Shown here: positions 18,718 through 33,655 of the stretch, piece by piece
Layout of the letters: each line of letters opens with the position of its first letter
Position numbering within the stretch: the first letter of the stretch is position 1
NCBI RefSeq assembly: GCF_017873415.1
Contig: NZ_JAGGKD010000013.1
Span: forward strand, 1-58,723
Source: Methanolobus bombayensis
Lineage (GTDB): Archaea > Halobacteriota > Methanosarcinia > Methanosarcinales > Methanosarcinaceae
Length of the DNA: 58,723 bases
Direction of reading: 5' to 3'
The notes under the pieces: generated by a model
What the model was told of the DNA's origin: nothing
Database searches by the model: none
What the model saw: the letters and a program-made list of their open reading frames with translations, nothing else
Position numbers and translations under genes: made by a program

Positions 18718-19521
18718 TCAGGTTTTATTCAGATCGTCGATCAAAAAAGTTTCAATATTGTGATCTACGTGTATGTCCTGATTACTGTCAATTTGCTCCT
18801 GAATACCCAATTTTTCCTGAACGGTCATAGGTGGGAAATAAGCAAGATATGCAAGTACAGTACCTATAAGGACAAACAACCTTGCAAACAGTTGCATTGC
18901 ATCAACTATTGCGATCATGTCTGTCAGCATAAAATCAAACACAAAAGAAATGGCTACCAATGGCAGCGCAGTCCTGTAACGTATCCTTTTTGGCATTCTT
19001 TGCAACAGGATCAACAGCAACAATCCCAGGATCATGGATGTCGGTATGACAAACAGTCCCATTAGATATAAGTTAATGGCAGCATCACTATTGATCATGA
19101 ATATAGAACCCCATTCTGTAACTATTGGCCCTACAATTCCGCTGTCATAAAGAAAAGTAAGATATGCTGCTCCTATTAGTGTAAATACCAGTGCAACATA
19201 TTCTCCTATTTTTTTACTTCCTGTTATCACATATATGATAAAGAATACAAGTGGAACAGATATAAATGCAAAAGGAATTGCTGTAATAAAGTACATTATT
19301 GCATCTATTTCCTGGTTACCTGCATAAGCTGCGAACATTCTTGCTGCTGCAGGCAGGTATGTCAGTCCGACTATTGTCCAGAAAAGTATTAATGAAAAAA
19401 GAGCAGGTTTACTATTTTTGTTGTATCTCTCCTTATTTCTGGAAAGTACCCATGCAAAGGCAAGAGATGACAATGTGATTGCAAAACAAATAGTTCCATT
19501 TAAAAGCAGTCCGGGATTCAT
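18718..19521 (-). CDS. archaellin-linked seven-helix membrane protein (copy 1)
   Basis: 267 residues with about seven membrane helices: MNPGLLLNGTICFAITLSS, a helix at 40-60, one at 75-100, one at 107-125, one at 147-172, and two near 182-230. Conserved stretch RTALPLVAISFVFDFMLTDMI and YFPPMTVQEKLGIQE recur in the paralogue at 22020-22811. The C-terminal 35 residues are soluble. It is divergently transcribed from archaellin 1 (161 bp between starts). I do not recognise the family; by position a role in archaellum expression or membrane sensing is inferred. Confidence 0.75.
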   Translation of the reverse strand: MNPGLLLNGTICFAITLSSLAFAWVLSRNKERYNKNSKPALFSLILFWTIVGLTYLPAAARMFAAYAGNQEIDAIMYFITAIPFAFISVPLVFFIIYVITGSKKIGEYVALVFTLIGAAYLTFLYDSGIVGPIVTEWGSIFMINSDAAINLYLMGLFVIPTSMILGLLLLILLQRMPKRIRYRTALPLVAISFVFDFMLTDMIAIVDAMQLFARLFVLIGTVLAYLAYFPPMTVQEKLGIQEQIDSNQDIHVDHNIETFLIDDLNKT

Positions 19522-19584
19522 CTCTTTCCTTTTATTAATAACTTACATTTTATTTATATATTTTCATTGTGCAAATGTTGCTAG

Positions 19585-19625
19585 TTTGGCGTTTGAGATT
19601 TCCAACCAAATGGTATTTATATTAT
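19585..19625 (+). promoter_or_regulatory. archaellin 1 promoter with conserved 25-bp motif
   Basis: The element TTTGGC followed by GTTTGAGATTTCCAACCAA (19585-19609) is repeated upstream of archaellin 3 with a single base change. It is followed by a TATA-like ATTTATATTATT (19615-19626). TTGG and CCAA arms give it partial dyad symmetry. It lies between divergent genes and could control both. Confidence 0.6.
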
Positions 19626-19682
19626 TCATTACTATATTAGTAATATATCCAAAAATAATAGGATATAAGAGGAGGATCGTAC

Positions 19683-20495
19683 ATGAAAGCAAACAACGCA
19701 TTACATTTGAACAAAAATACCAGAGCTCAGGTGGGTATTGGTACTCTTATCATATTCATCGCTATGGTTCTTGTAGCAGCAGTTGCAGCTGCTGTATTGA
19801 TTCAGACTTCCGGTACTCTGCAGCAAAAGGCTCAGTCAACCGGTAAACAGGCAACACAGGAAGTATCTTCTAACCTTATGGTAAAGACCATTGAAGGTGT
19901 GCGTGCCAAGACTTCATCAACTAATATGTCAGAAACAATTGACCTTCTGAAACTTAAGGTCGGTCTTAATGTCGGAAGTTCACCTGTAGATGTAAACCAG
20001 GTAGTAATCTCAATTACTGATGGGACAACCGCAAACAATCTTGTTTATGCAGGCAATACAAAATCATATGCATCAGCAGGACAGGACAATGGTGATATGG
20101 ACTCATTTAGTTCTTCTGATGCATCTTCGAATCTTGAGACTCTATTAACTGGCAACACAAGTGCAAGTAGTTCTATCAACAACGCAGATCACTATTATAC
20201 TGTAGAGAAGATCCGTGATGAAGATGCATCATTTTCACAGAGCAATCCTGTTATGAACACTGGAGATCTCATCACTGTTTATATTGCAACAACTTCCGAT
20301 ACTGCAGTGTCAAGTGGTTACCCAACCCTTGGATCTGCTGATGTTTCAGCTGGTTTAATAACATCAGGTCTTAATCTTGTACCGAGGACTACTGTAAACA
20401 TTGTCCTAACACCTGAATCTGGTGCAGCCACAACTGCAGACTTTGTAGCTCCATCTTCATACGGTGTTAAGGAGACTGTACAACTGTATCCATGA
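19683..20495 (+). CDS. arlB: archaellin (copy 1)
   Basis: 270 residues. Class III signal peptide with a basic leader, then NKNTRAQ before VGIGTLIIFIAMVLVAAVAAAVLI: the prepeptidase ArlK would cut before VGIG. The helix continues as QTSGTLQQKAQSTGKQATQEVSSNL, the archaellin assembly core. The variable domain has several N-x-S/T sequons (for example NMS and NTS), and the C-terminus has VPRTTVNIVLTPESGA..ADFVAPSSYGVKE. Forms the archaellum filament. AGGAGGA lies 8 nt before the ATG. Closest to copy 3 in this window. Confidence 0.96.
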   Translation: MKANNALHLNKNTRAQVGIGTLIIFIAMVLVAAVAAAVLIQTSGTLQQKAQSTGKQATQEVSSNLMVKTIEGVRAKTSSTNMSETIDLLKLKVGLNVGSSPVDVNQVVISITDGTTANNLVYAGNTKSYASAGQDNGDMDSFSSSDASSNLETLLTGNTSASSSINNADHYYTVEKIRDEDASFSQSNPVMNTGDLITVYIATTSDTAVSSGYPTLGSADVSAGLITSGLNLVPRTTVNIVLTPESGAATTADFVAPSSYGVKETVQLYP

Positions 20496-20502
20496 TCTGT
20501 CG

Positions 20503-20527
20503 ATGTGCGATTCTTCGCACATTTTTT
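20503..20527 (+). terminator. intercistronic hairpin after archaellin 1
   Basis: ATGTGCGA (20503-20510) and TCGCACAT (20515-20522) form an 8-bp stem with a 4-nt loop followed by TTTTT. It lies 8 nt past the stop and 13 nt before the next archaellin start. Probably a leaky terminator or mRNA-stability element that sets the ratio of the two archaellins. Confidence 0.6.
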
Positions 20528-20539
20528 GGAGCTGATAAT

Positions 20540-21322
20540 ATGAAAGCAAACAATAAAAAGATAAGATCGGACACAAGTGCACAGGTTGGTATAGGTACAC
20601 TGATTATATTCATTGCAATGGTTCTTGTGGCAGCAGTTGCTGCTGCAGTCTTGATCCAGACTTCCGGTACTCTGCAGCAGAAGGCTCAGTCTACTGGTAA
20701 GCAGGCAACCCAGGAAGTTTCATCTAACCTTATGGTAAAGACCATTGAAGGTATACGTGCTAAGGACGATGCAACTACTATGGCTGACAATATCTCAATG
20801 CTTGAACTTAAGGTCGGTCTTAATGTCGGTAGTTCTCCTGTAGATGTGAACCAGGTAGTCATCTCAATTACTGATGGAACTACTACTAACAACCTTATCT
20901 ATGCTAACAACGAGCAGACATATGGGAATGCTATGAAAGATTTCTCAGGTTCTGCCACGGCCGCTGCAAATAAATATAATATGACCACGGCAACACAGAC
21001 AACTCCTGGTGACAATGCAAAGTATTTCTTTACAGTAGAAAAGATTCGAGATGAAGATGGGTCTTTTAGCCAGGCAGAACCTGTTATGAACACAGGAGAT
21101 CTTGTGACATTCTATATCTCCACAGTAGCTGTAGGTGATACTGCATTTGATTATATTGGTTCTATGGCTACCAATGATGGTCAGGATGATACTGGCCTGG
21201 TGATTGGTCCAAGATCAGTTGTCAATATTGTATTGACACCAGAATCTGGTGCAGCCACTACTGCAGACTTTGTTACTCCGTCTTCATATGGTATCAAAGA
21301 AAATGTACAGCTGTATCCATAA
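20540..21322 (+). CDS. arlB: archaellin (copy 2)
   Basis: 260 residues; leader MKANNKKIRSDTSAQ, then VGIGTLIIFIAMVLVAAVAAA. The core helix is nearly identical to copy 1 to about residue 85. The variable region has sequons such as NIS and NMT. The C-terminus reads VNIVLTPESGAATTADFV then SSYGIKENVQLYP. The start at 20540 is chosen by the leader; upstream in-frame codons cross the hairpin. It resembles copy 4 in its YANN..TYGNAM stretch, pointing to block duplication. Confidence 0.96.
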   Translation: MKANNKKIRSDTSAQVGIGTLIIFIAMVLVAAVAAAVLIQTSGTLQQKAQSTGKQATQEVSSNLMVKTIEGIRAKDDATTMADNISMLELKVGLNVGSSPVDVNQVVISITDGTTTNNLIYANNEQTYGNAMKDFSGSATAAANKYNMTTATQTTPGDNAKYFFTVEKIRDEDGSFSQAEPVMNTGDLVTFYISTVAVGDTAFDYIGSMATNDGQDDTGLVIGPRSVVNIVLTPESGAATTADFVTPSSYGIKENVQLYP

Positions 21323-21323
21323 T

Positions 21324-21355
21324 GTGAGATTTTAAATCTCACTATATTTTATTTT
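21324..21355 (+). terminator. terminator after archaellin 2
   Basis: GTGAGATT-TTA-AATCTCAC (21324-21342) directly follows the stop and is followed by a T-rich tract with seven T residues. Strong terminator for the archaellin 1-2 unit. The rest of the gap to 21664 shows AT-rich sequence with no gene. Confidence 0.75.
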
Positions 21356-21664
21356 TTTGAATTGTACATTTTATTATTGTTATCTGCTTCTATTTTATGT
21401 GGATTTCTGATTCAAATATAACTTTTGTGAAGTATTTTTGACCTTGCTTTTATCTATAGGGTAGTTTGATTGTATTACTTAAAATGGGTTCTTAAATTGC
21501 AGTAAATTCGATAAAAGTGTAGTTAGTTATAGCTGTGTATGTCAACTATTTTTAGCGTCTACTTCGTATGTTACAATGATGGGCTTATAGCTTCCGGTTC
21601 AATATTTGAAGCATATTCTTCTCTTTCAGAGTTCAAAAAAAACAATGTTTATTCTTAATAAAGA

Positions 21665-22027
21665 TCAGGGCATTCTCTCAATGATTTCTCCCATTCTCTT
21701 ATTCTTCTTGTAGAATGCAGTGCTGTCTTTCAGGAAATTTGAGGCTGTTATTCCTTTGTCAGTGACGATATATCCGCCACGTTTGACTTTTTCCACAAGT
21801 CCTTCAAGCTGGAATACAGTTTTCATCTTACTGCCTATGCTGCCTTTGTCTGCAAATTGGTCGGTATACTTTCTGATCTCGGAAAATTCTGTGATCTTTC
21901 CCTCATTTTTCCCAAGTACTCGAAGTATTAACCTGTATTGTATGTCTCCGGGTCCCTGGTGGATGCCCATTGACTGATAGAATTCTGCCACAGCCTGTTC
22001 AAGTCCTACATCAATATCTTCAGACAT
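21665..22027 (-). CDS. winged-helix regulator-like protein
   Basis: 120 residues beginning MSEDIDVGLEQAVAEFYQSMG. Residues about 30-100 read as a winged helix (QYRLILRVLGKNEGKITEFSEIRKY, then KMKTVFQLEGLVEKVKRGGYIVTDKG). No membrane segment. The start at 22027 has GGAGG 9 nt upstream and overlaps the end of the seven-helix gene by 8 nt, so the two are coupled. It is probably a local transcription regulator of the archaellin block. It has no counterpart in the first block. Confidence 0.65.
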   Translation of the reverse strand: MSEDIDVGLEQAVAEFYQSMGIHQGPGDIQYRLILRVLGKNEGKITEFSEIRKYTDQFADKGSIGSKMKTVFQLEGLVEKVKRGGYIVTDKGITASNFLKDSTAFYKKNKRMGEIIERMP

Positions 22028-22811
22028 CAACATCTTCCTCCTCTTCATCGATGTCGATGTCCTTTTCGTAGAGTTCGTACTGGTATTTTTGTATGCCCAG
22101 TTTTTCCTGTAATGTCATGGGTGGGAAATAAGCAAGGAATGCCAGCACTGTTCCTATTAATACAAATAACCTTGCAACAAGTTGCATCACATCGACCATG
22201 GTGATCATGTCTGTAAGCATGAAGTCAAAAACAAAAGAGATTGCAACAAGTGGAAGAGCTGTTCTGTATCTTAGGTGTTTTGGCATTTTCTGCAGGAATA
22301 TCAGAAGTAAAAACCCTATGATCATTGCTGTTGGAATTACAAAAAGCCCCATCATGTATATGTTAATGGCAATATCGCTATTTATTGTAAATATAGATCC
22401 ATATTCTGAAACAATTGGACCTATGATTCCTTTTGTGAAAAGAAACATCAGGAATGAAGCTCCAAACAGTACAAAAAGCAGTGAAATGTATGCACTTATC
22501 TTTTTGCTGCCTGCTATTACATAAAGGATGAAAAATACCAATGGTACTGCAACAAAAGAAAATGGGATTACTGCAAGGCTGTACATCATAATGTCGAGAT
22601 TTTCTTTTCCAAAGTAAGCCGCTATCATCCTTATGGTGGTTGGCAGGTAAGTGAGTCCTACAAGGGACCATAAAATTACAAGTGACCAGAGAGCAGGTTT
22701 ACTCTTCTCGCTATGTTCTTCTTCGTTGCGAGCAAGCACCCATGCAAAAGCAAATGATGATATGGTTATTGCAAAACAGATTGTTGCATTTAATAGCAAG
22801 CCTGCATTCAT
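22020..22811 (-). CDS. archaellin-linked seven-helix membrane protein (copy 2)
   Basis: 263 residues, clear paralogue of the protein at 18718-19521: same start (MNAGLLLNATICFAITISS), same helix order, the same RTALPLVAISFVFDFMLTDMI and YFPPMTLQEKLGIQ. The C-terminal tail differs and is very acidic (EKDIDIDEEEEDVDV). Divergent from archaellin 3 across 155 bp. Overlaps the downstream winged-helix gene. Function unknown. Confidence 0.75.
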   Translation of the reverse strand: MNAGLLLNATICFAITISSFAFAWVLARNEEEHSEKSKPALWSLVILWSLVGLTYLPTTIRMIAAYFGKENLDIMMYSLAVIPFSFVAVPLVFFILYVIAGSKKISAYISLLFVLFGASFLMFLFTKGIIGPIVSEYGSIFTINSDIAINIYMMGLFVIPTAMIIGFLLLIFLQKMPKHLRYRTALPLVAISFVFDFMLTDMITMVDVMQLVARLFVLIGTVLAFLAYFPPMTLQEKLGIQKYQYELYEKDIDIDEEEEDVDV

Positions 22812-22876
22812 CTAATCCCTCTGTTTTATTTACACATTGTTAATATATAATGTTTCCTCATGCCGAACTTACACTG

Positions 22877-22920
22877 TTTGGTGTTTGAGATTTCCAACCA
22901 ATTAATATATATATTATTAT
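22877..22920 (+). promoter_or_regulatory. archaellin 3 promoter with conserved 25-bp motif
   Basis: TTTGGT followed by GTTTGAGATTTCCAACCAA (22877-22901), differing from the archaellin 1 copy at one base. A TATA stretch (TTAATATATATATTATT, 22902-22918) follows directly. Same position relative to the divergent membrane-protein gene. Confidence 0.6.
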
Positions 22921-22966
22921 GTAGTATATAAATTCATCCATATTAATGGATTATAGGAGGATATGC

Positions 22967-23776
22967 ATGAAAGCGAACAATACATTATATTTGAAAAAAA
23001 ATACTAAGGCTCAGGTGGGTATTGGTACTCTTATCATATTCATCGCCATGGTCCTTGTAGCTGCTGTAGCAGCTGCGGTTCTTATACAGACATCCGGTAC
23101 TCTGCAGCAGAAAGCTCAGTCAACCGGTAAGCAGGCAACGCAGGAAGTATCTTCTAACCTTATGGTAAAGACCATTGAAGGTGTACGTGCAAAGAACAGT
23201 GCAACTGATATGTCAAGTACAATTGACCTTCTTAAACTCAAAGTTGGTCTTAATGTCGGAAGTTCTCCGGTTGACGTAAATCAGGTAGTGATATCAATTA
23301 CTGATGGAACAACTGCAAATAATCTTGTTTACGCAGGAAATGAGAAATCATATGCCTCTACAGGTCAGGATAACGGAGACATGGACAACTTTGGATCAAG
23401 TGCATCTGAAAATTTGGCGAACCTCTTGGTAAATAGTACTACTGCAAGCAGCTCATTCAATAATTCTGATAACTATTATACTGTAGAGAAGATTCGTGAT
23501 GAGGATTCATCATTCTCTCAGGGTAATCCTGTAATGAACACTGGGGATCTGATTACAGTTTACATATCAACAATTTCAGACTCAGCAGTCTCAGCCGGCT
23601 ATTCAACACTGGGAACTACAAATGTTTCATCCGGAATGAAGACTTCAGGACTTAACCTTGTACCGAGGACTACTGTGAACATTGTCCTAACCCCAGAATC
23701 AGGTGCAGCAACAACCTCTGACTTTGTAGCTCCATCTTCATACGGTGTTAAAGAAACAGTACAGCTCTATCCATAA
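22967..23776 (+). CDS. arlB: archaellin (copy 3)
   Basis: 269 residues, leader MKANNTLYLKKNTKAQ then VGIGTLIIFIAMVLVAAVAAA. Very similar to copy 1 across the whole length, including VYAGN.KSYAS.GQDNGDMD and DNYYTVEKIRDED. Sequons include NST and NNS. The ATG at 22967 has AGGAGG 7 nt upstream; an upstream in-frame ATG at 22946 is less likely. First archaellin of the second block. Confidence 0.96.
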   Translation: MKANNTLYLKKNTKAQVGIGTLIIFIAMVLVAAVAAAVLIQTSGTLQQKAQSTGKQATQEVSSNLMVKTIEGVRAKNSATDMSSTIDLLKLKVGLNVGSSPVDVNQVVISITDGTTANNLVYAGNEKSYASTGQDNGDMDNFGSSASENLANLLVNSTTASSSFNNSDNYYTVEKIRDEDSSFSQGNPVMNTGDLITVYISTISDSAVSAGYSTLGTTNVSSGMKTSGLNLVPRTTVNIVLTPESGAATTSDFVAPSSYGVKETVQLYP

Positions 23777-23786
23777 TGCAAGAGAT

Positions 23787-23815
23787 ATCTGTGGTGTTCT
23801 CACTGCAGATTCTTT
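23787..23815 (+). terminator. imperfect hairpin after archaellin 3
   Basis: ATCTG (23787-23791) pairs with CAGAT (23806-23810), with an inner GTG/CAC stem and a 2x2 mismatch, followed by TCTTTT. It sits in the 56-bp gap before archaellin 4, the same place as the hairpin after archaellin 1, although the sequence is unrelated. Confidence 0.4.
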
Positions 23816-23832
23816 TACATTGAGAGGTTACT

Positions 23833-24612
23833 ATGATCTCTAATGCCAGTTTAAAAAGGAACAATACTGCCCAGGTGGGTATTGGTACTCTCATTATTTT
23901 CATAGCTATGGTTCTGATTGCTGCTGTAGCGGCATCTGTACTTATACAGACATCCGGTACACTGCAGCAACAAGCGCAGTCAACCGGGAAACAGGCTACA
24001 CAGGAAGTATCATCAAATCTTGTTGTTAAAAACATAGAAGGCGTTCGTGCAAAGACTTCGTCTACAAGTATGGCTTCAAACATTTCCCTTCTCAAGGTAA
24101 AGGTGGGACTTAATGTCGGAAGTTCTCCTGTGGATCTTAATCAGTTGATAATTTCCATAACTGATGGTACTAACACAAATGACCTTATTTATGCCAACAA
24201 CGATAAAACCTATGGAAATGCAATGGCCAATTTCTCATCATCTGAAACAGCCGCGACAAATCTTTTATACCTATTAAATGGTACTCAGAGTAGTCCTGGT
24301 GCAAATGGCATGTATTTCTTCACCGTACAAAAAATAAGGGATGAAGATGTTTCATTTTCTCAGGCCAATCCTATTATGAATACAGGTGATCTGGTGACAA
24401 TTTACATTTCTGTTGTATCTGATGGTGACCTTTCTTACACAACAATAGATGGTGTCACCACCGGTGGAACTCAGAAGGATTCCAATCTTGACCTTGCTCC
24501 ACGTTCTACGGTTACAATAGTAATGACTCCTGAAGCCGGAGCCACTTCTATGGCAGAGTTTGTCACTCCTTCATCGTATGGTACCAGAGAAACGATACAA
24601 TTATATCCATAA
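23833..24612 (+). CDS. arlB: archaellin (copy 4)
   Basis: 259 residues, leader MISNASLKRNNTAQ then VGIGTLIIFIAMVLIAAVAAS. The core is like the others but more divergent: QQQAQSTGKQATQ, VVKNIEGVRAK, DLNQLIISITDG. The variable region shares IYANNDKTYGNAM with copy 2. The C-terminus is VTIVMTPEAGATSMAEFV then SSYGTRETIQLYP. Probably a minor filament subunit of the same locus. Confidence 0.95.
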   Translation: MISNASLKRNNTAQVGIGTLIIFIAMVLIAAVAASVLIQTSGTLQQQAQSTGKQATQEVSSNLVVKNIEGVRAKTSSTSMASNISLLKVKVGLNVGSSPVDLNQLIISITDGTNTNDLIYANNDKTYGNAMANFSSSETAATNLLYLLNGTQSSPGANGMYFFTVQKIRDEDVSFSQANPIMNTGDLVTIYISVVSDGDLSYTTIDGVTTGGTQKDSNLDLAPRSTVTIVMTPEAGATSMAEFVTPSSYGTRETIQLYP

Positions 24613-24651: not shown

Positions 24652-25320
24652 ATGTCAGAAAAAATTCTGTTAATATTTATCATTCTATCTTTGTTCTTTA
24701 TTCCAGTTTCGTCTGCAGATGCCATTTTTACAAATGAGATACAGGTTTATGATTCGTCTCTGAATTTAACAATAAATGAGCGCTATATCGGGAATGATTC
24801 TGAAGCTTTCCGTTTAAGCCTTGATATCGATAACAATAGTATGGTAACTCAAGATGAAGTTGAAACCTTTGTTCAGGAATTTAAGAAGAATGGAACAATA
24901 CAGTATTTAGGTTATATTTTGATTGATGATGGAAATATGGCTCTTTCACTTGATTCATTCGACCTGGAAGTTTCAGGTGCAGAAGGTAATGTGAATACTT
25001 CGGAAATAGGAGTCAGAGCTAATATTGTTTATGGTGTACCTGGGTCACTTGAATCCGGAAAGCATAGCATATGGATTCTTGGCCATCCGGCAATTGAAAA
25101 AATGAGTATTTCTTTGCCTTCTAATATGGTAGTGAGAGATGTTAATGGAATCGATGATATGGAAACATCCTGTGATTCCGAAAGACAGTTGATTATGGGA
25201 CGTAGCGGAATTCGGTCATTTGTGGTAGATGGACGCCAGACTTTTGAGTATGCCGTTATGATAGAGGTAGGTAAATCTGACTTTGTTGCAGACCTTTCTA
25301 TTTTCCCTTCTTTATTTTAA
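24652..25320 (+). CDS. secreted protein downstream of the archaellins
   Basis: 222 residues. Signal peptide at 1-21 (KILLIFIILSLFFIPVSS with cleavage after SADA). The rest is beta-rich and extracellular, without cysteines except one near 178. Several Asn sequons (NLT, NNS, NTS). No C-terminal anchor. I do not recognise a domain. It lies 39 bp after archaellin 4, across a hairpin, and may be expressed by read-through; an accessory role at the cell surface is inferred. Confidence 0.6.
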   Translation: MSEKILLIFIILSLFFIPVSSADAIFTNEIQVYDSSLNLTINERYIGNDSEAFRLSLDIDNNSMVTQDEVETFVQEFKKNGTIQYLGYILIDDGNMALSLDSFDLEVSGAEGNVNTSEIGVRANIVYGVPGSLESGKHSIWILGHPAIEKMSISLPSNMVVRDVNGIDDMETSCDSERQLIMGRSGIRSFVVDGRQTFEYAVMIEVGKSDFVADLSIFPSLF

Positions 25321-25460: not shown

Positions 25461-26399
25461 ATGAAGAAACGTATGTATGGTTCTATTGTTGTTATTTTTG
25501 TTATTCTGTTGAGCATATACAGTAGTGGTTGTGTCAGTAGTGATCCTGAGGAAGAAGTACCTGAAACAGTTAACACATTTATGACTGCTATTAACGACGG
25601 TGACTTTAACGCCGCTTTTAATATGTATACGGGTAAGGATTTCCTGGCAGTTGCAAGTATAAAAATGATTTTTGCCAACAAGGGTATCGAACCTGGTACT
25701 ATTGAAGAAGTAAACATTGTTTCTCAGGAAATTGCTGAATCAATTGCTGTTGTTGAAGTTGACTGTACAGTATCAAATTCTGAGGGTGGCACAAGTAATA
25801 TTCCTATCTATTTCAGTCTCCAGAATAGCCAGCTTGGATGGATTATTACAAGAGTATCTTTCACAGTTCCATTAACTCTTGATAATGCAGAAGTAGTGGA
25901 TGTTGATGTGGAATCTACGAAAATAGATGTTATTGCAAACAATGCTCCGCTTATATTTGTTTTTGCTTTAGTCATGCTTGTTCTTGGTCTCTATCTTGAC
26001 AGAAAAGACAAAGCTAAGAAAAAGGAAAACAGCAGGACTATAGATGTTTCCGGTGCAACTCCTATACAGAAGGAGTCTATTGCACAGTATGTCAAATTCG
26101 TTCCTTCTCAGCAGATCACAGTAGGCAAAACAGCTACAGTTGATGTATGGGTGAAGAATTTCACGCAACAGCCTTACAATGATTTTGCCATTAAAGCTAA
26201 ATTCGCAAATTCTCTTGAGCCTGAAAAGATCAATCTTTTCTTTGATAATATAGCTCCTGGTGAAACCGTAAAAAGAACATGGGTAGTAAAACCAAAACTT
26301 TCAGGCTGGGCTTCAATTGAAGAACCAACTGTGGTATTCAATTTCGGAGGGAACAAATACATAGGTGTGCTCGACCCTGTGTGGTTGCAGGTGCAGTGA
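25461..26399 (+). CDS. lipoprotein with internal membrane helix and C-terminal Ig-like domain
   Basis: 312 residues. N-terminal signal with a lipobox-like YSSGC near 24-28. Residues 30-150 resemble a cystatin/NTF2-like DUF4878 fold (VPETVNTFMTAINDGDFNAAFNMYTG). A hydrophobic helix follows at about 160-178 (APLIFVFALVMLVLGLYL), then a Lys-rich stop-transfer, and a C-terminal Ig/CARDB-like domain (210-312). By charge the C-terminal domain would be cytoplasmic, which is unusual for this fold. Probably first gene of the operon; 34 bp separate it from the deacetylase-like gene. Confidence 0.65.
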   Translation: MKKRMYGSIVVIFVILLSIYSSGCVSSDPEEEVPETVNTFMTAINDGDFNAAFNMYTGKDFLAVASIKMIFANKGIEPGTIEEVNIVSQEIAESIAVVEVDCTVSNSEGGTSNIPIYFSLQNSQLGWIITRVSFTVPLTLDNAEVVDVDVESTKIDVIANNAPLIFVFALVMLVLGLYLDRKDKAKKKENSRTIDVSGATPIQKESIAQYVKFVPSQQITVGKTATVDVWVKNFTQQPYNDFAIKAKFANSLEPEKINLFFDNIAPGETVKRTWVVKPKLSGWASIEEPTVVFNFGGNKYIGVLDPVWLQVQ

Positions 26400-26433
26400 A
26401 TTTATAGACTGAATTATATTGTGGGTGATATGG

Positions 26434-28497
26434 GTGTCGTCAGATACAAACAAAAACGAGGAATCTGCTAATCATTTGTCTCCGGATGTTATGAAAAAAT
26501 TAAATGAGGCATTTTTGTCTTATTTCGATGGAAAACAGCCTGGGAAAAGCAGTATTGATCTCTCAGAAGAAAATGCTATTCTTGATCTGATCAAATCCGG
26601 TATAGAGGAAAAATCCAGTAAATCCGTTGAAGGCAATGAAGCCAAAAAAATGATTGTTATTGGTGAAGGATTTATTGAAGCCGGAGATGAGACCATCACC
26701 TACTCTGATGACCAGGATATGCAAATGGAGCCTGCAGTATCATCTCCTGCTTTTGGCCAGGGGGTTCCGGATGTTTTATCAAATGCTTTTGATGATGTGT
26801 CCTATCAGTCTGTTGAAATCGAAGTTGAAGAACCGGAAAAATCTTCTGAAAGCAAGGACCGGGATTACTCAAAAACCGTTTCTGATATTTTGGAACGAAC
26901 TTCTAAAGTTCCAAAGGTTTCCTCTTATCATCATGATGAATCTTCTGGTACCGTTCCGAAAAAAGAGACTCTTACTGCTAAAAACACCAGTAAACCGCAA
27001 AATGAGTTTAACCTTAAGGAAAAAACAGGTGCACCCAGAAAGCCAATAACTTCACAACAAACAAAGGCTGCACCTTCACAAGTTAAACAGGAACCAATGG
27101 TTGAAACTACCAGAAGCGTTCCTTCATCATCAGAACCTTCTCCTCAAAGAAAGAAAGTTAATGATAAGGTTTCGACATCTTCCCCATTAAAGCCTGAAGT
27201 TTCAGGAAACATAAAAAAAGAGCCTTTCTCTTCTGTACAGACTTCAGAAAAACATCCTTCTCAAAAAGTATCTGACTCACAGATATCTAAACTATTCCGT
27301 AAAGCTTCTGAAAAAACTTCCGTAGATGCATCATTTTCAAATAATCCGCCTGCAATTTCTGGTGCAAAGAAGACAGCAAAACCCATTAACAAAGTTCCGG
27401 ACAATCCTTCATCTCCTGTAAACATAGCTTTCCTTTACAGTAAAGATCACATGCAACATGATGCATCCTTACTTTCCATCATTACTCATGAAAAACCGGA
27501 GCGTATAATCAAAGCCATGTGGTATCTGGAAAAGAACAATGTGTTTTCAGATGGTACATGTACACTGATCGGTGATTTCCAGGCAGCAAGTGAAGAGGAT
27601 CTGCACAGGGTTCATGGAAAGGAATATATTTCTTTCGTTAAGTCCTATTCAGGTTCAGGTGGTGGTTTCCTTGGTGACAGTACCTATATGACTTCAGGTT
27701 CTTATGAGATTGCCAGGACTGCAGCAGGTGCAGCCATGCAGGCAGGTGACCTTCTTGTGGACGGTAAATTCACTCATGCTTTTGTCCTGACACGTCCTCC
27801 GGGACATCATGCAAGTTCCCAGAAGTACGGTGGTTTTTGTCTTTTTAACAATGCAGCAGTGCTTGCTAGACATCTTCAGCATAACAGAAAGGTGGGAAAG
27901 GTGATGATCCTTGACTGGGATGCACATGCAGGTGACGGTACTATGGAAATATTCTATGAAGATCCCAGTGTAATGTTGTTATCTCTGCATCGTGATCCTC
28001 ATGGATTTTATCCGCGAAAAGGTTTTAGTACTGAGGTTGGTGAGAATGCCGGCAAGGGTTATACAATGAACGTGGAAATGCCTGAAGGTTCAAGCAATGA
28101 TGAATATATGCTTGCTTTTGACGAAGTGGTTCTTCCTATGGTAGAACATTTCAACCCTGATTTTATAATATTGAGCTGTGGTTTTGATGCACACTATCAG
28201 GAAATGAATATAGGACTGGAACTTGATTCTGATGGTTATCACCAGATGACTGCAAAACTGCATTCTGTATTCAAAGGACCAATTGTATTCCTGCTTGAAG
28301 GTGGTTATCATGATTTTAATGGCCAGTTATGCCACAGTGTACTGAGTTCCCTGCAAGGACGTCCGAATCCTGTAAATGATAAACAGCAAACATCCAGCTA
28401 TAAACGTAATCAACAGAAGCAGATATTTGAAGAGGCCAGGAAAAAAGTTGCTGAATCTAAACGAAATCATCCTGTATTCTCATCACAGGTGGCCTGA
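26434..28497 (+). CDS. histone-deacetylase-fold protein with long disordered N-terminus
   Basis: 687 residues. The first 325 or so are low complexity, rich in Ser, Lys, Pro, Glu and without fold signature. The arginase/deacetylase domain spans about 328-645: RPPGHHA (catalytic His pair), FCLFNNAAVLA, DWDAHAGDGT (zinc Asp and His), SCGFDAHYQE (second zinc Asp) and LLEGGYH. These are all the residues needed for zinc-dependent deacetylation. A basic tail of 45 residues follows. The GTG start at 26434 has GGTGA 5 nt upstream. It overlaps the next deacetylase-like gene. Substrate unknown: acetyl-lysine or acetyl-polyamine are both possible. Confidence 0.85.
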   Translation: MSSDTNKNEESANHLSPDVMKKLNEAFLSYFDGKQPGKSSIDLSEENAILDLIKSGIEEKSSKSVEGNEAKKMIVIGEGFIEAGDETITYSDDQDMQMEPAVSSPAFGQGVPDVLSNAFDDVSYQSVEIEVEEPEKSSESKDRDYSKTVSDILERTSKVPKVSSYHHDESSGTVPKKETLTAKNTSKPQNEFNLKEKTGAPRKPITSQQTKAAPSQVKQEPMVETTRSVPSSSEPSPQRKKVNDKVSTSSPLKPEVSGNIKKEPFSSVQTSEKHPSQKVSDSQISKLFRKASEKTSVDASFSNNPPAISGAKKTAKPINKVPDNPSSPVNIAFLYSKDHMQHDASLLSIITHEKPERIIKAMWYLEKNNVFSDGTCTLIGDFQAASEEDLHRVHGKEYISFVKSYSGSGGGFLGDSTYMTSGSYEIARTAAGAAMQAGDLLVDGKFTHAFVLTRPPGHHASSQKYGGFCLFNNAAVLARHLQHNRKVGKVMILDWDAHAGDGTMEIFYEDPSVMLLSLHRDPHGFYPRKGFSTEVGENAGKGYTMNVEMPEGSSNDEYMLAFDEVVLPMVEHFNPDFIILSCGFDAHYQEMNIGLELDSDGYHQMTAKLHSVFKGPIVFLLEGGYHDFNGQLCHSVLSSLQGRPNPVNDKQQTSSYKRNQQKQIFEEARKKVAESKRNHPVFSSQVA

Positions 28498-29573
28498 TGA
28501 ACCGGGTAGGTCTTACTTTCAACAGTAACCATCATTTGCATGATTCCTTAATGAATGGTTATCCCTGTCCTGAAAATCCTTTAAGGATCAAGAATATAAT
28601 GGAATATCTTAAAAACAGTGGTCTTATTGATGATGAAAACTGTCGTTTTTATGATGCTTTACCTGCATCTGTAAATGATATACTGAGAGTTCATACTCAG
28701 GAATATGTTGAACTGATAAGGACTTGTACAAAAGACCCACGACAAAGCCCGGGAAATGACGTTTATGTTTGTCCTTCCTCTTTTGATGTGGTTCTCGAAG
28801 CACTTGGTTGTGTTCTGAAAGCCGGTGATCTTGTTGTTTCAGGAGAATGCAGGCATGCATTTGCAATTGTTCGTCCACCTGGTCACCATGCAGGTCCTGA
28901 TTCGTGCAGTGGTTTCTGTATTTTTAATAATTCGGGGATTCTTGCCCGTTATCTTCGTGAGGTAAAGGGTCTGGAACGAATTGCTATTATCAATATTGAT
29001 GCCCATGCTTCAGATGGCACTTATGATGCTTTTGAAGCTGACACGAATGTATTATGTGTATCAATGCATCAGGATCAGAAAACCCTTTATCCTTTCAAGG
29101 GTTTTATCAGGGATATTGGTGTTAGGCCGGCACTTGGTTATTGTATCAATATGGAAATGCCAACAGAATCAGGAAATCCGGAATATTCACTTTTCTATGA
29201 TGAGGTTGTTGAAAAGGTGCTTGATAAGTTCAATCCTCAAATAGTTATTCTTGAATGTGGTTTTGATGCTTATTACAAGGAGCCGCTGGCAAAACTTAAT
29301 TTAACTGTCGATGGTTACTATAGAATAATATTTAAACTTGCAAGTAAATGGGACGTTGTAACCCTGCTTGAAGGTGGCTACCATGAAGATCTTGGTCTTC
29401 TTGCATCAGTTGTCCTTCGTGCATTGGCAGGGTTTGAGAATGTAAAGGATGATGTCGATCAGATAGACCTGCTTGCATCGAGACATGTTAAAACCAGAAA
29501 AGAGTTCAACAATAATCTCTCTCTTCTGAAAAGCAGGCTGGAACCATATTGGGGTCCATGGAATCGCAGTTAA
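28497..29573 (+). CDS. histone-deacetylase-fold protein (second copy)
   Basis: 358 residues, a single deacetylase domain: NSNHHLHDSLMNGYPCPENPLRI at the N-terminus, RVHTQEYV, RPPGHHAGPDSCSGFCIFNN, IINIDAHASDGT, ECGFDAYYKE and LLEGGYHED. Zinc ligands are kept; the residue after FDA is Tyr where the first copy has His. The ATG overlaps the stop of the upstream gene by 1 nt. The pair may form a heterodimer or act on different substrates. Confidence 0.88.
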   Translation: MNRVGLTFNSNHHLHDSLMNGYPCPENPLRIKNIMEYLKNSGLIDDENCRFYDALPASVNDILRVHTQEYVELIRTCTKDPRQSPGNDVYVCPSSFDVVLEALGCVLKAGDLVVSGECRHAFAIVRPPGHHAGPDSCSGFCIFNNSGILARYLREVKGLERIAIINIDAHASDGTYDAFEADTNVLCVSMHQDQKTLYPFKGFIRDIGVRPALGYCINMEMPTESGNPEYSLFYDEVVEKVLDKFNPQIVILECGFDAYYKEPLAKLNLTVDGYYRIIFKLASKWDVVTLLEGGYHEDLGLLASVVLRALAGFENVKDDVDQIDLLASRHVKTRKEFNNNLSLLKSRLEPYWGPWNRS

Positions 29574-30625: not shown

Positions 30626-30641
30626 TATGGGGTCTTTTCAT

Positions 30642-31229
30642 ATGGCTCAAGAGCAGGGTATCGCAAAAGTTGATTTAAGTTATATTTATAAAGCAGTGAT
30701 GATGGGTAATTCCCTTTACTCTGATAATTGGGAGAAAGGTGTTCTCTACCTTACCAATCTAAATCTGTGGTTCTCAGAAGGCGGAGGATGGCTGACAATT
30801 CCTCTTAAAAACATTACAATGGTAGGCAGAGAAGTTCCTAATCCAATCAGGGTAAAGTCTCAGCGTACTATCGGAACTTCACATATTCTTATGATAGATT
30901 ATCTTCAGCCATCATCTGTTGTAGAAGGAGCCACGGCGTCAGCTACCGCTTTACTTGCAGGTAATGAAGCAGTGATCAATACACTCAAAGCTTATCTGCA
31001 ACCAATGTGTGGCACACCTCCAAAACAACAATCACTTTCTGATGTTGATAAGAAGCTTCTTTACATGCTTCACACAGGTGTGAACGATCTACAAAAACTG
31101 ACTTTCTTTATTGGTGTGGACAACGACACACTTGCAACAAGTTTCAAGAGCCTGAGGGAGGCAAACATGTGTGACACCTCGGGTAAGCTTACAGAACAGG
31201 GACTGAAACAGATCAAGGAGATGATGTGA
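30642..31229 (+). CDS. CheF-like taxis adaptor (DUF439-type)
   Basis: 195 residues. N-terminal beta-rich domain (YSDNWEKGVLYLTNLNLWFS...LTIPLKNITMVGRE) and a C-terminal winged helix (LSDVDKKLLYMLHTGVNDLQKLTFFIGVDNDTL) in the order seen in archaeal CheF, which links CheY to the archaellum motor. It is shorter than haloarchaeal CheF. The ATG at 30642 has GGGG upstream; the ATG at 30627 is an alternative. First gene of an eight-gene operon, a short distance from the archaellins. No CheY, CheA or MCP in the window. The match is by pattern, so moderate confidence. Confidence 0.55.
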   Translation: MAQEQGIAKVDLSYIYKAVMMGNSLYSDNWEKGVLYLTNLNLWFSEGGGWLTIPLKNITMVGREVPNPIRVKSQRTIGTSHILMIDYLQPSSVVEGATASATALLAGNEAVINTLKAYLQPMCGTPPKQQSLSDVDKKLLYMLHTGVNDLQKLTFFIGVDNDTLATSFKSLREANMCDTSGKLTEQGLKQIKEMM

Positions 31230-31263
31230 TATGGATTTAATCACCACAAAGGAGGAATTATAA

Positions 31264-32181
31264 TTGGCTGATCCTGGTCTCCCTCCGTTTATGACAGATT
31301 CTGCCGGTGGCCCGCCTCCGGCACAGGAAGGTAGTTTTGGCCAATCGATGGGTGCTTTTGGGGCATTGCTGAAGCTCCAGCAGAACATAAGTGATAAGTT
31401 CCCAAAAGCCAAAGTTCCATGGAACGAAACCAGAAAATTCCTTAAAGCGAGTACAATAGAGTTGATAAGATCAACATCTCTCTACAAGTTCCATATGAAA
31501 TTCTTCAAGGATATCGGTCTTGGGAACATGCAGCTGATATCTTATGCACCAATGCATTACATATTTGCAGTCCCGAACAATCCGGTGTGTAATTTTTATC
31601 CTGCACTGCAGAATCAAAAGGTATGTGTAGCCACAACAGATGCACTTCACAGATTCTTCAGGGAAGACCTTGAACTTGAATGTTCCGTTGAAGAAACAGA
31701 ATGTATCAAGAACGGTGATCCTGTATGCAAATTCAAGGTTGATCTCCAGCCTATATCCGCATATCAGGTAATGCTTGATGAACATGACAAAATGATACTT
31801 TCCGGTGTCAGACCGCCTGTTGATGATAATGAACTAAGGGACAGAGTAAAGACATTGACAATTTATAAATTACTTGAGAGTGGTCGTCTCTCGGAAATAG
31901 GCAATGCCTACATGCAATTTGCCAGCAATATGCCGGTTCAGGAGAAGATATTCGATCCACCGTGGAAGCTTCAGGAAGAACTCTCCTCAATCGCTGAATC
32001 GCACAATACATTTGGTGGAGCTTTCGGTGAAATGGCCAAAAAGATACAGGTTCCACAGCAGAAAGAACAGAAGGAACCTTCGCCGGAAGTATCTGAAGAA
32101 ACCGCAAAAATACAGGAAGAAGCTAAAAAGACGGATAGTTTTGCCGAGCTTCTTTCTAAAATGAAGAAGGAGCAATCGTGA
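31264..32181 (+). CDS. V4R-domain protein
   Basis: 305 residues, TTG start with AGGAGG 9 nt upstream. Residues about 60-165 fit the V4R (4-vinyl reductase) small-molecule-binding domain: HYIFAVPNNPVCNFYPAL, ALHRFF, and EETECIKNGDPVCKFKV, which is the typical C-terminal E-x-C-x-x-x-G-D-x-x-C-x-F signature. The N-terminus is Pro/Gly-rich, the middle is helical, and the C-terminal 55 residues are Lys/Glu-rich. Such domains sense or bind ligands and are common in archaeal signalling. 34 bp after the CheF-like gene. Confidence 0.7.
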   Translation: MADPGLPPFMTDSAGGPPPAQEGSFGQSMGAFGALLKLQQNISDKFPKAKVPWNETRKFLKASTIELIRSTSLYKFHMKFFKDIGLGNMQLISYAPMHYIFAVPNNPVCNFYPALQNQKVCVATTDALHRFFREDLELECSVEETECIKNGDPVCKFKVDLQPISAYQVMLDEHDKMILSGVRPPVDDNELRDRVKTLTIYKLLESGRLSEIGNAYMQFASNMPVQEKIFDPPWKLQEELSSIAESHNTFGGAFGEMAKKIQVPQQKEQKEPSPEVSEETAKIQEEAKKTDSFAELLSKMKKEQS

Positions 32182-32588
32182 TTTTTATGGCAGGTTACAG
32201 ATCAGTTTCGCCATACACTCATCTGGATGATTTTGCAGGTGAGAATGTAAGGGTGATCACAAATAATTCACACTACAGGGGTGAATGTGAAAAGATAGAC
32301 CGGAAAAACAACAATGTACTTCTGAAAAATGTTGTTGTTAAAAATGAAACCGGATGGGTTGAAGTTAGTGATTACATGTTGATCATGGGTCACTCCATTG
32401 AGTCGGTCTATATTGAAAAAAGCTTTCCTTTTGACAGTAATGAGTCACTTATTCTTTCAATAGAGGATGGGTCTCCTTTACCAGATTCAGAACCAGGACT
32501 TGAAGGGATTACAGAGAATACAGAAATTATGGATATTGGTGAATTAGGCAACCTTGATGAAATTAAACTTCCGGAGGAACTCAAATGA
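32178..32588 (+). CDS. LSM-like small protein
   Basis: 136 residues. Residues about 18-60 (DDFAGENVRVITNNSHYRGECEK then DRKNNNVLLKNVVV) have the strand pattern of an Sm/LSM fold: 'G..V.V.T.....Y.G....D...N.VLL.......'. The rest, about 80-136, is acidic. LSM folds bind RNA or act as assembly rings; whether RNA is bound here is unknown. GTG start with AGGAG 5 nt upstream; ATG at 32187 is an alternative. It overlaps both the V4R gene and the KaiC-like gene by 4 nt, so the three are tightly coupled. Confidence 0.5.
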   Translation: MIFMAGYRSVSPYTHLDDFAGENVRVITNNSHYRGECEKIDRKNNNVLLKNVVVKNETGWVEVSDYMLIMGHSIESVYIEKSFPFDSNESLILSIEDGSPLPDSEPGLEGITENTEIMDIGELGNLDEIKLPEELK

Positions 32589-33655
32589 GCAGTGAAGATA
32601 GGATACCAACCGGAATTGCAGGTCTTGACAGGGTAATTGAAGGCGGTGTACGTGATAACACCACTATGCTGGTAGTAGGTTCAAGTGGTACGGGTAAATC
32701 CACTTTTGCAATGCAGTACCTGAATTACGGACTTGAACATGGTGAGAACGGACTTTATATAAGTATGGAAGAACCACCTGAGCAGATCCTGCGTGAAGCA
32801 AAGATGCTGGGTTTTAATCTTGATGGTTATTATGAAAAAGAACTTTTCTTCTTCCATTCAAAAGGTAAGGACTTTGTAAAGCTTGTCGATGAACAACTTC
32901 CGGCACTTGTAGAGGCAAACAAGAACTATGCGGTAAAGACCCGGGTGGTCATCGATCCGCTTACTCCGCTTATATGGGCCGTTCAGGATAAGCAGGAGCA
33001 GCGTGAGATTATAACAAAGCTGTTCTATACTCTGAAGCAGCTTGGCCCTGTTCTCATCACAACAGAAGAACATGCTTCTCCCGGTGAGACCATTGGTGAG
33101 GATGTACTTATCCCTATTTACATGTCTGATGGTGCCGTGCACCTGACATACAGGCCAATTGGAGGAGCATTTAACAGGGCCCTTGAGATTGTAAAAATGC
33201 GTGCAACAAGACATGGTGAGGAGGTCTATCCTTACATCTTTGTCCGTGGTGTCGGTGTTGTGGTCAGGACTACTCCGCTTGTATCTGCTGAGGATGTACG
33301 CAAGTATGATGATGTCTTTGACAAAGCCATTCGTACGGCTGCTGACCTTGGTGCCAATGAAAGAATGCTTGAACGTCTTGTGTATGTCAAAGAGAACTGG
33401 TCATATCCATTCTCTCCAAAGGAAACACTGCAGATATTCTTCGAATCCCAGGGTCTCAATGATACAATTACCAAAGAAGAACTTGAAAAACGCAGGGAAG
33501 AGACAGCTTCTCAGATTACAGAACCCGAAGTCGCAGAATCTGCAGAAGTTATACAGCAGGATGTTGAACCCGTTCAGGAAGAAGAATATTCCCAGGATGA
33601 TGAACCACTTATTGAAATAGACAATCTGAGCGAACTGGAAGAAATGATCCAGTGA
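32585..33655 (+). CDS. KaiC-like RecA-family ATPase
   Basis: 356 residues. KaiC/RAD55 domain with N-terminal RIPTGIAGLDRVIEGGV, Walker A GSSGTGKST (about 33-41), a Walker B-type hydrophobic strand ending VVIDPLTPL, LITTEEHAS, and LEIVKMRATRHGEEVYPY toward the C-terminal end of the domain. Beyond residue 225 is a helical region followed by an acidic tail (QPEVAES...EEEYSQDD). Such ATPases act in circadian clocks, chemotaxis and archaellum assembly (ArlH). ArlH itself is shorter (about 230), so this is a different branch. It sits in the middle of the operon. Confidence 0.8.
   Translation: MSSEDRIPTGIAGLDRVIEGGVRDNTTMLVVGSSGTGKSTFAMQYLNYGLEHGENGLYISMEEPPEQILREAKMLGFNLDGYYEKELFFFHSKGKDFVKLVDEQLPALVEANKNYAVKTRVVIDPLTPLIWAVQDKQEQREIITKLFYTLKQLGPVLITTEEHASPGETIGEDVLIPIYMSDGAVHLTYRPIGGAFNRALEIVKMRATRHGEEVYPYIFVRGVGVVVRTTPLVSAEDVRKYDDVFDKAIRTAADLGANERMLERLVYVKENWSYPFSPKETLQIFFESQGLNDTITKEELEKRREETASQITEPEVAESAEVIQQDVEPVQEEEYSQDDEPLIEIDNLSELEEMIQ

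Follow-up and report, generated by a model that had tools for sequence, protein, structure and literature searches.

The region described here spans positions 18718–24612 of a 58,723-nt window (the whole stretch of DNA that was analysed) from Methanolobus bombayensis, NZ_JAGGKD010000013.1, and contains archaellin genes accompanied by a seven-helix transmembrane (7TM) protein and a winged helix-turn-helix (wHTH) protein; this protein pair, together with a promoter motif, is probably an archaellum-building switch that had not been described before. Open reading frame (ORF) calls divide the region into two blocks of about 2.6 kb, A and B, each with one minus-strand 7TM gene and two plus-strand archaellin genes. 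Block A comprises 7TM-A (18718..19521, minus strand), which has no adjoining wHTH gene, and the archaellins fla1 (19683..20495, plus strand) and fla2 (20540..21322, plus strand, with an ORF extendable upstream to 20492). Block B comprises a wHTH gene encoding 120 residues (21665..22027, minus strand), its operon partner 7TM-B (22020..22811, minus strand), and the archaellins fla3 (22967..23776) and fla4 (23833..24612), both on the plus strand. The wHTH gene lies behind 7TM-B and its frame overlaps the end of the 7TM-B frame by 8 nt. All four archaellins are identified as such by PF01917 scores of 102–116 bits against a cut-off of 29.5 (E = 3.6e-33, 4.8e-29, 1e-32, and 2.3e-31 for fla1 to fla4), and all four carry QVGIGTLIIF after a basic leader, in agreement with the class III signal peptide pattern (Q-V-G-I-G-T-L-I). 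Neither the 7TM nor the wHTH protein matches any Pfam or NCBIfam family above cut-off, so that neither has a curated family. The two-block arrangement recurs across Methanolobus genomes with spanning contigs, and this recurrence is far beyond chance.

The archaellin promoters carry a nearly invariant 17-nt near-palindrome, GTTTGANATTTCCAACC, located 5–6 nt upstream of the TATA box. In both blocks the promoters have GTTTG-NN-GTTTGA-N-ATTTCCAACC in common, followed by 5–6 nt and a TATA-like run. Within it, GTTTGANA-TTTCCAAC forms a core with imperfect dyad symmetry, 12 of 16 positions being paired in the window copy. Perfect copies of the element, GTTTGAGATTTCCAACC, lie on the plus strand ahead of fla1 (19591..19607) and fla3 (22883..22899), and these are the only two matches with at most one mismatch in the 3.12-Mb genome. 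Among 186 genomes of the order Methanosarcinales, the perfect element has 58 matches spread over 40 genomes; a 7TM gene is present in 38 of these, and the remaining pair, G064 and G065, are ANME-2c assemblies that are 68% and 82% complete. Almost all of the 58 distinct perfect contexts examined, which include one from a genome outside the order (G443), lie 124–216 nt before the GIGTLI codon of an archaellin (57/58, the last ending at a contig edge), and the gap between element and TATA is 5–6 nt in 56 of them. The informative controls of specificity are the genome-wide count and the reversed pattern; a dinucleotide shuffle of the window, searched at 3 mismatches, is uninformative. A variant, GTTAAGAATTTACAACC, occupies the same promoter place in Methanoperedens, and fla1 of Methanomethylovorans genomes G142 and G144 retains a one-mismatch copy without 7TM-A.

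Profiles of the two proteins, run over the same 186 genomes, found 7TM in 69, wHTH in 68, and both in 67, such that 67 of the 70 genomes having either gene have both (Fisher p = 4e-47, a value that overstates the evidence because genomes are treated as independent and phylogeny is uncorrected). Repeated gains of the pair in new contexts weigh more than such p-values. A wider sample, with 393 genomes from across the phylum, added three genomes outside the order, in each of which both genes stand side by side with an archaellin adjoining; a weak wHTH match in a further genome (G266, E = 9e-4) was dropped, having no archaellin nearby. High-scoring ArlH, a mark of one archaellum type, occurs in 65 of the 69 7TM carriers versus 11 of the 117 other genomes, at a 244-bit cut chosen from the score table. 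The profile search over the order found no Methanosarcina genome with the pair, though these genomes have archaellum genes; Methanosarcina acetivorans is without the motif as well. The initial annotation of the locus had proposed that a membrane protein travelling with archaellins hints at a functional link, and the neighbourhoods bear this out: among loci outside Methanolobus whose contigs show the flank (n = 45), an archaellin adjoins the pair in 39, from Methanococcoides to Methanoperedens and the three genomes outside the order. The proposal needs two amendments, in that the linked unit is the 7TM–wHTH pair plus the promoter motif rather than the 7TM protein alone, and the linkage is not absolute; the six exceptions are all ANME-2c genomes, in which FBPase and a RimK-like gene flank the pair and the archaellins lie elsewhere. 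In Methanoperedens, 7TM, wHTH, and archaellin are co-directional, with homologues of arlF, G, H, and I coming next; this genus and three f2 genomes hold the pair within the archaellum cluster itself, and in the genomes outside the order it adjoins a lone archaellin within unrelated surroundings. The two genes are inherited and lost together as an ancestral overlapping operon. As a separate observation, a Methanosalsum genome (G147, locus L185) has a second wHTH gene without 7TM beside trpC, divergent from an archaellin and about 11 kb from a complete 7TM–wHTH pair.

Several lineages offer natural experiments. In ANME-2c, where the pair is unlinked from archaellins, a perfect motif still precedes the archaellins, and because the motif stays there while the pair lies elsewhere, it appears to belong to the archaellin promoter and to be read in trans; the notion that the motif is part of the 7TM promoter was rejected on the same grounds. 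Conversely, in two complete Methanococcoides genomes (G117 and G119), the trpC–archaellin–p312 arrangement is in place and 7TM, wHTH, and motif are all gone, so that pair and motif have been co-lost. In a third Methanococcoides genome (G120, locus L205), no archaellins were detected, all that is left of 7TM is a C-terminal remnant, and wHTH is retained beside trpC.

Structures were predicted for both proteins of the pair. The AlphaFold model of wHTH, with a mean predicted local distance difference test (pLDDT) score of 86, shows a winged helix with a long C-terminal helix, and its nearest solved folds are MarR proteins, although these matches are weak (Z up to 8.5, root-mean-square deviation 4.7 over 103 residues, Foldseek E not below 0.02). 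The 7TM-B model (pLDDT 82) shows seven membrane-length helices with a hairpin between helices 4 and 5, and is predicted from loop charges to have its N-terminus outside and its C-terminus inside. Comparison with G-protein-coupled receptors (GPCRs) and microbial rhodopsins gives Z of 13–15 over 200–230 residues, values close to what helical bundles can attain through their arrangement alone; with a best Foldseek E of 2.7e-3, the protein is best described as a generic 7TM receptor-like bundle. A sequence search of PDB with both profiles gave no useful match. Residues that do not vary between families include R61, D196, D201, Q210, and R214, and the cytoplasmic tail retains a QEKLGI-like stretch. 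The tail is strongly acidic in 7TM-B (mean charge −9.7) and less so in 7TM-A, the copy without wHTH (−4.2), a contrast that would fit contact between tail and wHTH but does not itself show such contact.

The best reading of the data is that 7TM and wHTH probably constitute a two-gene membrane sensor–regulator module that controls archaellin transcription. In the proposed mechanism, a wHTH dimer would bind GTTTGANA-TTTCCAAC at archaellin promoters and recruit TFB/TBP, while the 7TM protein, oriented N-out/C-in, would sense a cue and control wHTH, perhaps by holding it through the acidic cytoplasmic tail. In Methanolobus, where the block was duplicated and copy A lost wHTH, two sensors and two archaellin pairs would share one trans-acting wHTH. 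A more specific form of this scheme, in which the receptor-like 7TM protein signals directly to the operon-encoded wHTH reading the archaellin dyad, giving a kinase-free two-protein route from membrane to promoter, with two receptors sharing one regulator in Methanolobus and so setting archaellin output, is advanced only tentatively. Several points weigh against the module as proposed. A factor other than wHTH could bind the motif; the choice between activator and repressor is argued from position only; and it is the genomic association, together with topology and a generic 7TM fold, that suggests a sensing role for 7TM. Moreover, archaellin promoters in Methanosalsum, including that of G147, lack a clear motif though the pair is present, and part of the perfect-motif counts comes from closely related genomes that are not independent.

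Activation by wHTH appears likelier than repression because the motif adjoins the B recognition element (BRE) and TATA box, as do the sites of the activators EarA and CsmR (PMC10665913, PMC13286277). The opposite arrangement, in which wHTH represses until the 7TM sensor releases it and the module limits archaellin synthesis, is unlikely, even though many MarR-like wHTH proteins repress, the fold neighbours of this protein are of MarR type, and titration of a DNA-binding protein by an acidic tail is conceivable; the motif sits upstream of BRE/TATA, at a fixed 5–6 nt gap and not over the TATA box or the start, which is the usual place of archaeal activators such as EarA (PMC10665913), and the motif decayed in the two Methanococcoides genomes after loss of the pair. 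Still less probable is a reading in which wHTH alone regulates and 7TM is a structural or assembly factor of the archaellum, for example an anchor, an archaellin insertion factor, or a stator-like part. Such a role would suit a membrane protein adjoining archaellins, given that the archaellum requires membrane assembly parts; however, 7TM is divergent from the archaellins and co-transcribed with wHTH as an operon, stays with wHTH and not with archaellum genes in ANME-2c, and is absent from Methanosarcina genomes that have archaellum genes, as it is from other archaella. Finally, the view that nothing beyond common descent and synteny near trpC lies behind the association is very improbable, for although much of the linkage within Methanosarcinaceae is inherited synteny beside trpC, the pair also occurs in the archaellum cluster of Methanoperedens and f2 and beside lone archaellins in unrelated contexts outside the order, and synteny leaves unexplained both the motif retained at unlinked ANME-2c archaellins and the co-loss in Methanococcoides.

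The two blocks themselves were initially annotated as products of duplication of an ancestral block of about 2.6 kb, and this is supported by an archaellin tree of 80 sequences from 20 genomes. The tree does not join fla1 to fla2 and fla3 to fla4, a topology that would have contradicted block duplication, and instead separates {1,3} from {2,4} as two clades with a Shimodaira–Hasegawa-like approximate likelihood ratio (SH-aLRT) support of 100; all 20 fla4 sequences share one branch (support 98). The two 7TM proteins are 69% identical, and in the 7TM tree, a Methanolobus-only 7TM-A clade (support 99) stands beside a clade formed by 7TM-B and the single Methanomethylovorans 7TM. Because of these clades, and because Methanomethylovorans keeps four identically ordered archaellins without 7TM-A, the block duplication is older than the split of the two genera, with 7TM-A later lost in Methanomethylovorans. 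The initial annotation left undecided whether block B had gained wHTH or block A had lost it. Since single-copy genomes of other families show 7TM followed by wHTH, and Methanolobus has wHTH in block B only, the order of genes points to loss from block A of one member of an ancestral 7TM–wHTH operon; gain in block B was rejected, as both co-occurrence and operon order indicate an ancestral pair. In lineage g24 (L186–L188), 7TM copies stand in tandem with no archaellin separating them, and the wHTH counts, two in a single genome and one in each of two others, show the same loss recurring.

Within genomes, fla1 and fla3 share 71–98% DNA identity (98.4% in G005, 93.7% in G137, 93.4% in G024, and 81.4% in M. 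bombayensis), compared with 67–72% for fla2/fla4 and 65–72% for 7TM-A/B, and several fla1/fla3 pairs cluster by genome in the tree. In G005 the identical tract covers most of the gene, having started about 180 nt ahead of the 7TM-to-archaellin boundary count. These patterns indicate that fla1 and fla3 undergo gene conversion in several genomes, and show that archaellin genes can be homogenised in this way while the linked putative 7TM sensors diverge. An apparent fused archaellin frame of 549–558 residues in G004 and G008 was discarded, as separate stops are present.

Among known regulators, one close parallel is EarA (euryarchaeal archaellum regulator A), an archaellum activator in Methanococcus and Pyrococcus (PMC10665913), which is an archaellum-specific wHTH protein acting on archaellin promoters from a site just upstream of BRE/TATA; the module proposed here would share these features. 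However, EarA reads TACATA-type repeats about 9–11 nt from BRE (PMC10665913), in contrast to the GTTTGANATTTCCAAC dyad found here, and no 7TM partner of EarA is described in the literature examined. Its family is arCOG03422/pfam07381 (PMC4858521), and PF07381 gave no match to nine wHTH members at E up to 10 with HMMER filters on. CsmR of Haloferax volcanii, a small 13 kDa wHTH protein encoded beside archaellin genes and needed for motility (PMC13286277), resembles the present protein in size and gene position; it binds a semi-palindrome upstream of BRE/TATA, as is proposed for the present protein, but its motif is TATCA-N4-TGATA, whereas the aligned promoter columns here form a different dyad; furthermore, CsmR is Lrp/AsnC-like with a beta-sandwich dimer interface, unlike the long C-terminal helix modelled here. 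The wHTH profile found no archaellin-linked match beyond pair carriers in the 393 phylum genomes, and CsmR (HVO_1209) is set apart by its motif and description.

ArnR and ArnR1 of Sulfolobus unite wHTH and a membrane segment in one polypeptide (PMC6396743, PMC4858521) and act on the archaellin promoter, an action that does not extend to the second arl promoter (PMC13286277). They share with the system proposed here a membrane-linked DNA-binding control at the arlB/archaellin promoter, but here the functions are divided between two genes and the membrane part has seven helices; there was no pfam13463 match, and no fused 7TM–wHTH form was seen among the loci inspected. Judged from these comparisons, the module appears distinct from EarA in sequence and motif, from CsmR in motif, and from ArnR in architecture. 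The 7TM protein resembles GPCRs and microbial rhodopsins in its predicted N-out/C-in seven-helix fold and the hairpin between helices 4 and 5; it has no sequence similarity to solved structures, and helix 7 (residues 207–228) contains no Schiff-base lysine for retinal, which sets it apart from microbial rhodopsins. According to a passage of Makarova et al. 2016 (PMC4858521), arCOG03067 regulators lie near flaB in many euryarchaea, and the wHTH protein may already carry an arCOG number.

In the open-licence papers searched, no description was found of the 7TM–wHTH pair or the motif, nor of any archaellum regulator for Methanosarcinales or methane-oxidising ANME archaea. The gene pair, the 17-nt site, and the natural cases of co-loss provide a concrete and testable set. 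If the proposal is correct, the coupling of a membrane receptor to a single class of promoter would make for an archaeal sensory circuit of unusual directness, and a direct route from 7TM to wHTH would represent a new class of archaeal signalling.

Further genes lie downstream of the archaellins. Two without a family occupy 24652–25320 and 25461–26399; the product of the latter is lipoprotein-like with a membrane segment, is kept downstream of the archaellins across Methanolobus, Methanomethylovorans, Methanococcoides, and g24, and is a possible archaellum accessory. These are followed at 26419–29573 by a tandem pair of histone-deacetylase-domain proteins (PF00850, 1.7e-86 and 4.1e-79) and a weak GNAT-type protein, and at 30627–33655 by a protein with a weak CheF-arch match (E = 0.0015, below cut-off), then a V4R/MsvR-like protein, and lastly a KaiC-like ATPase.

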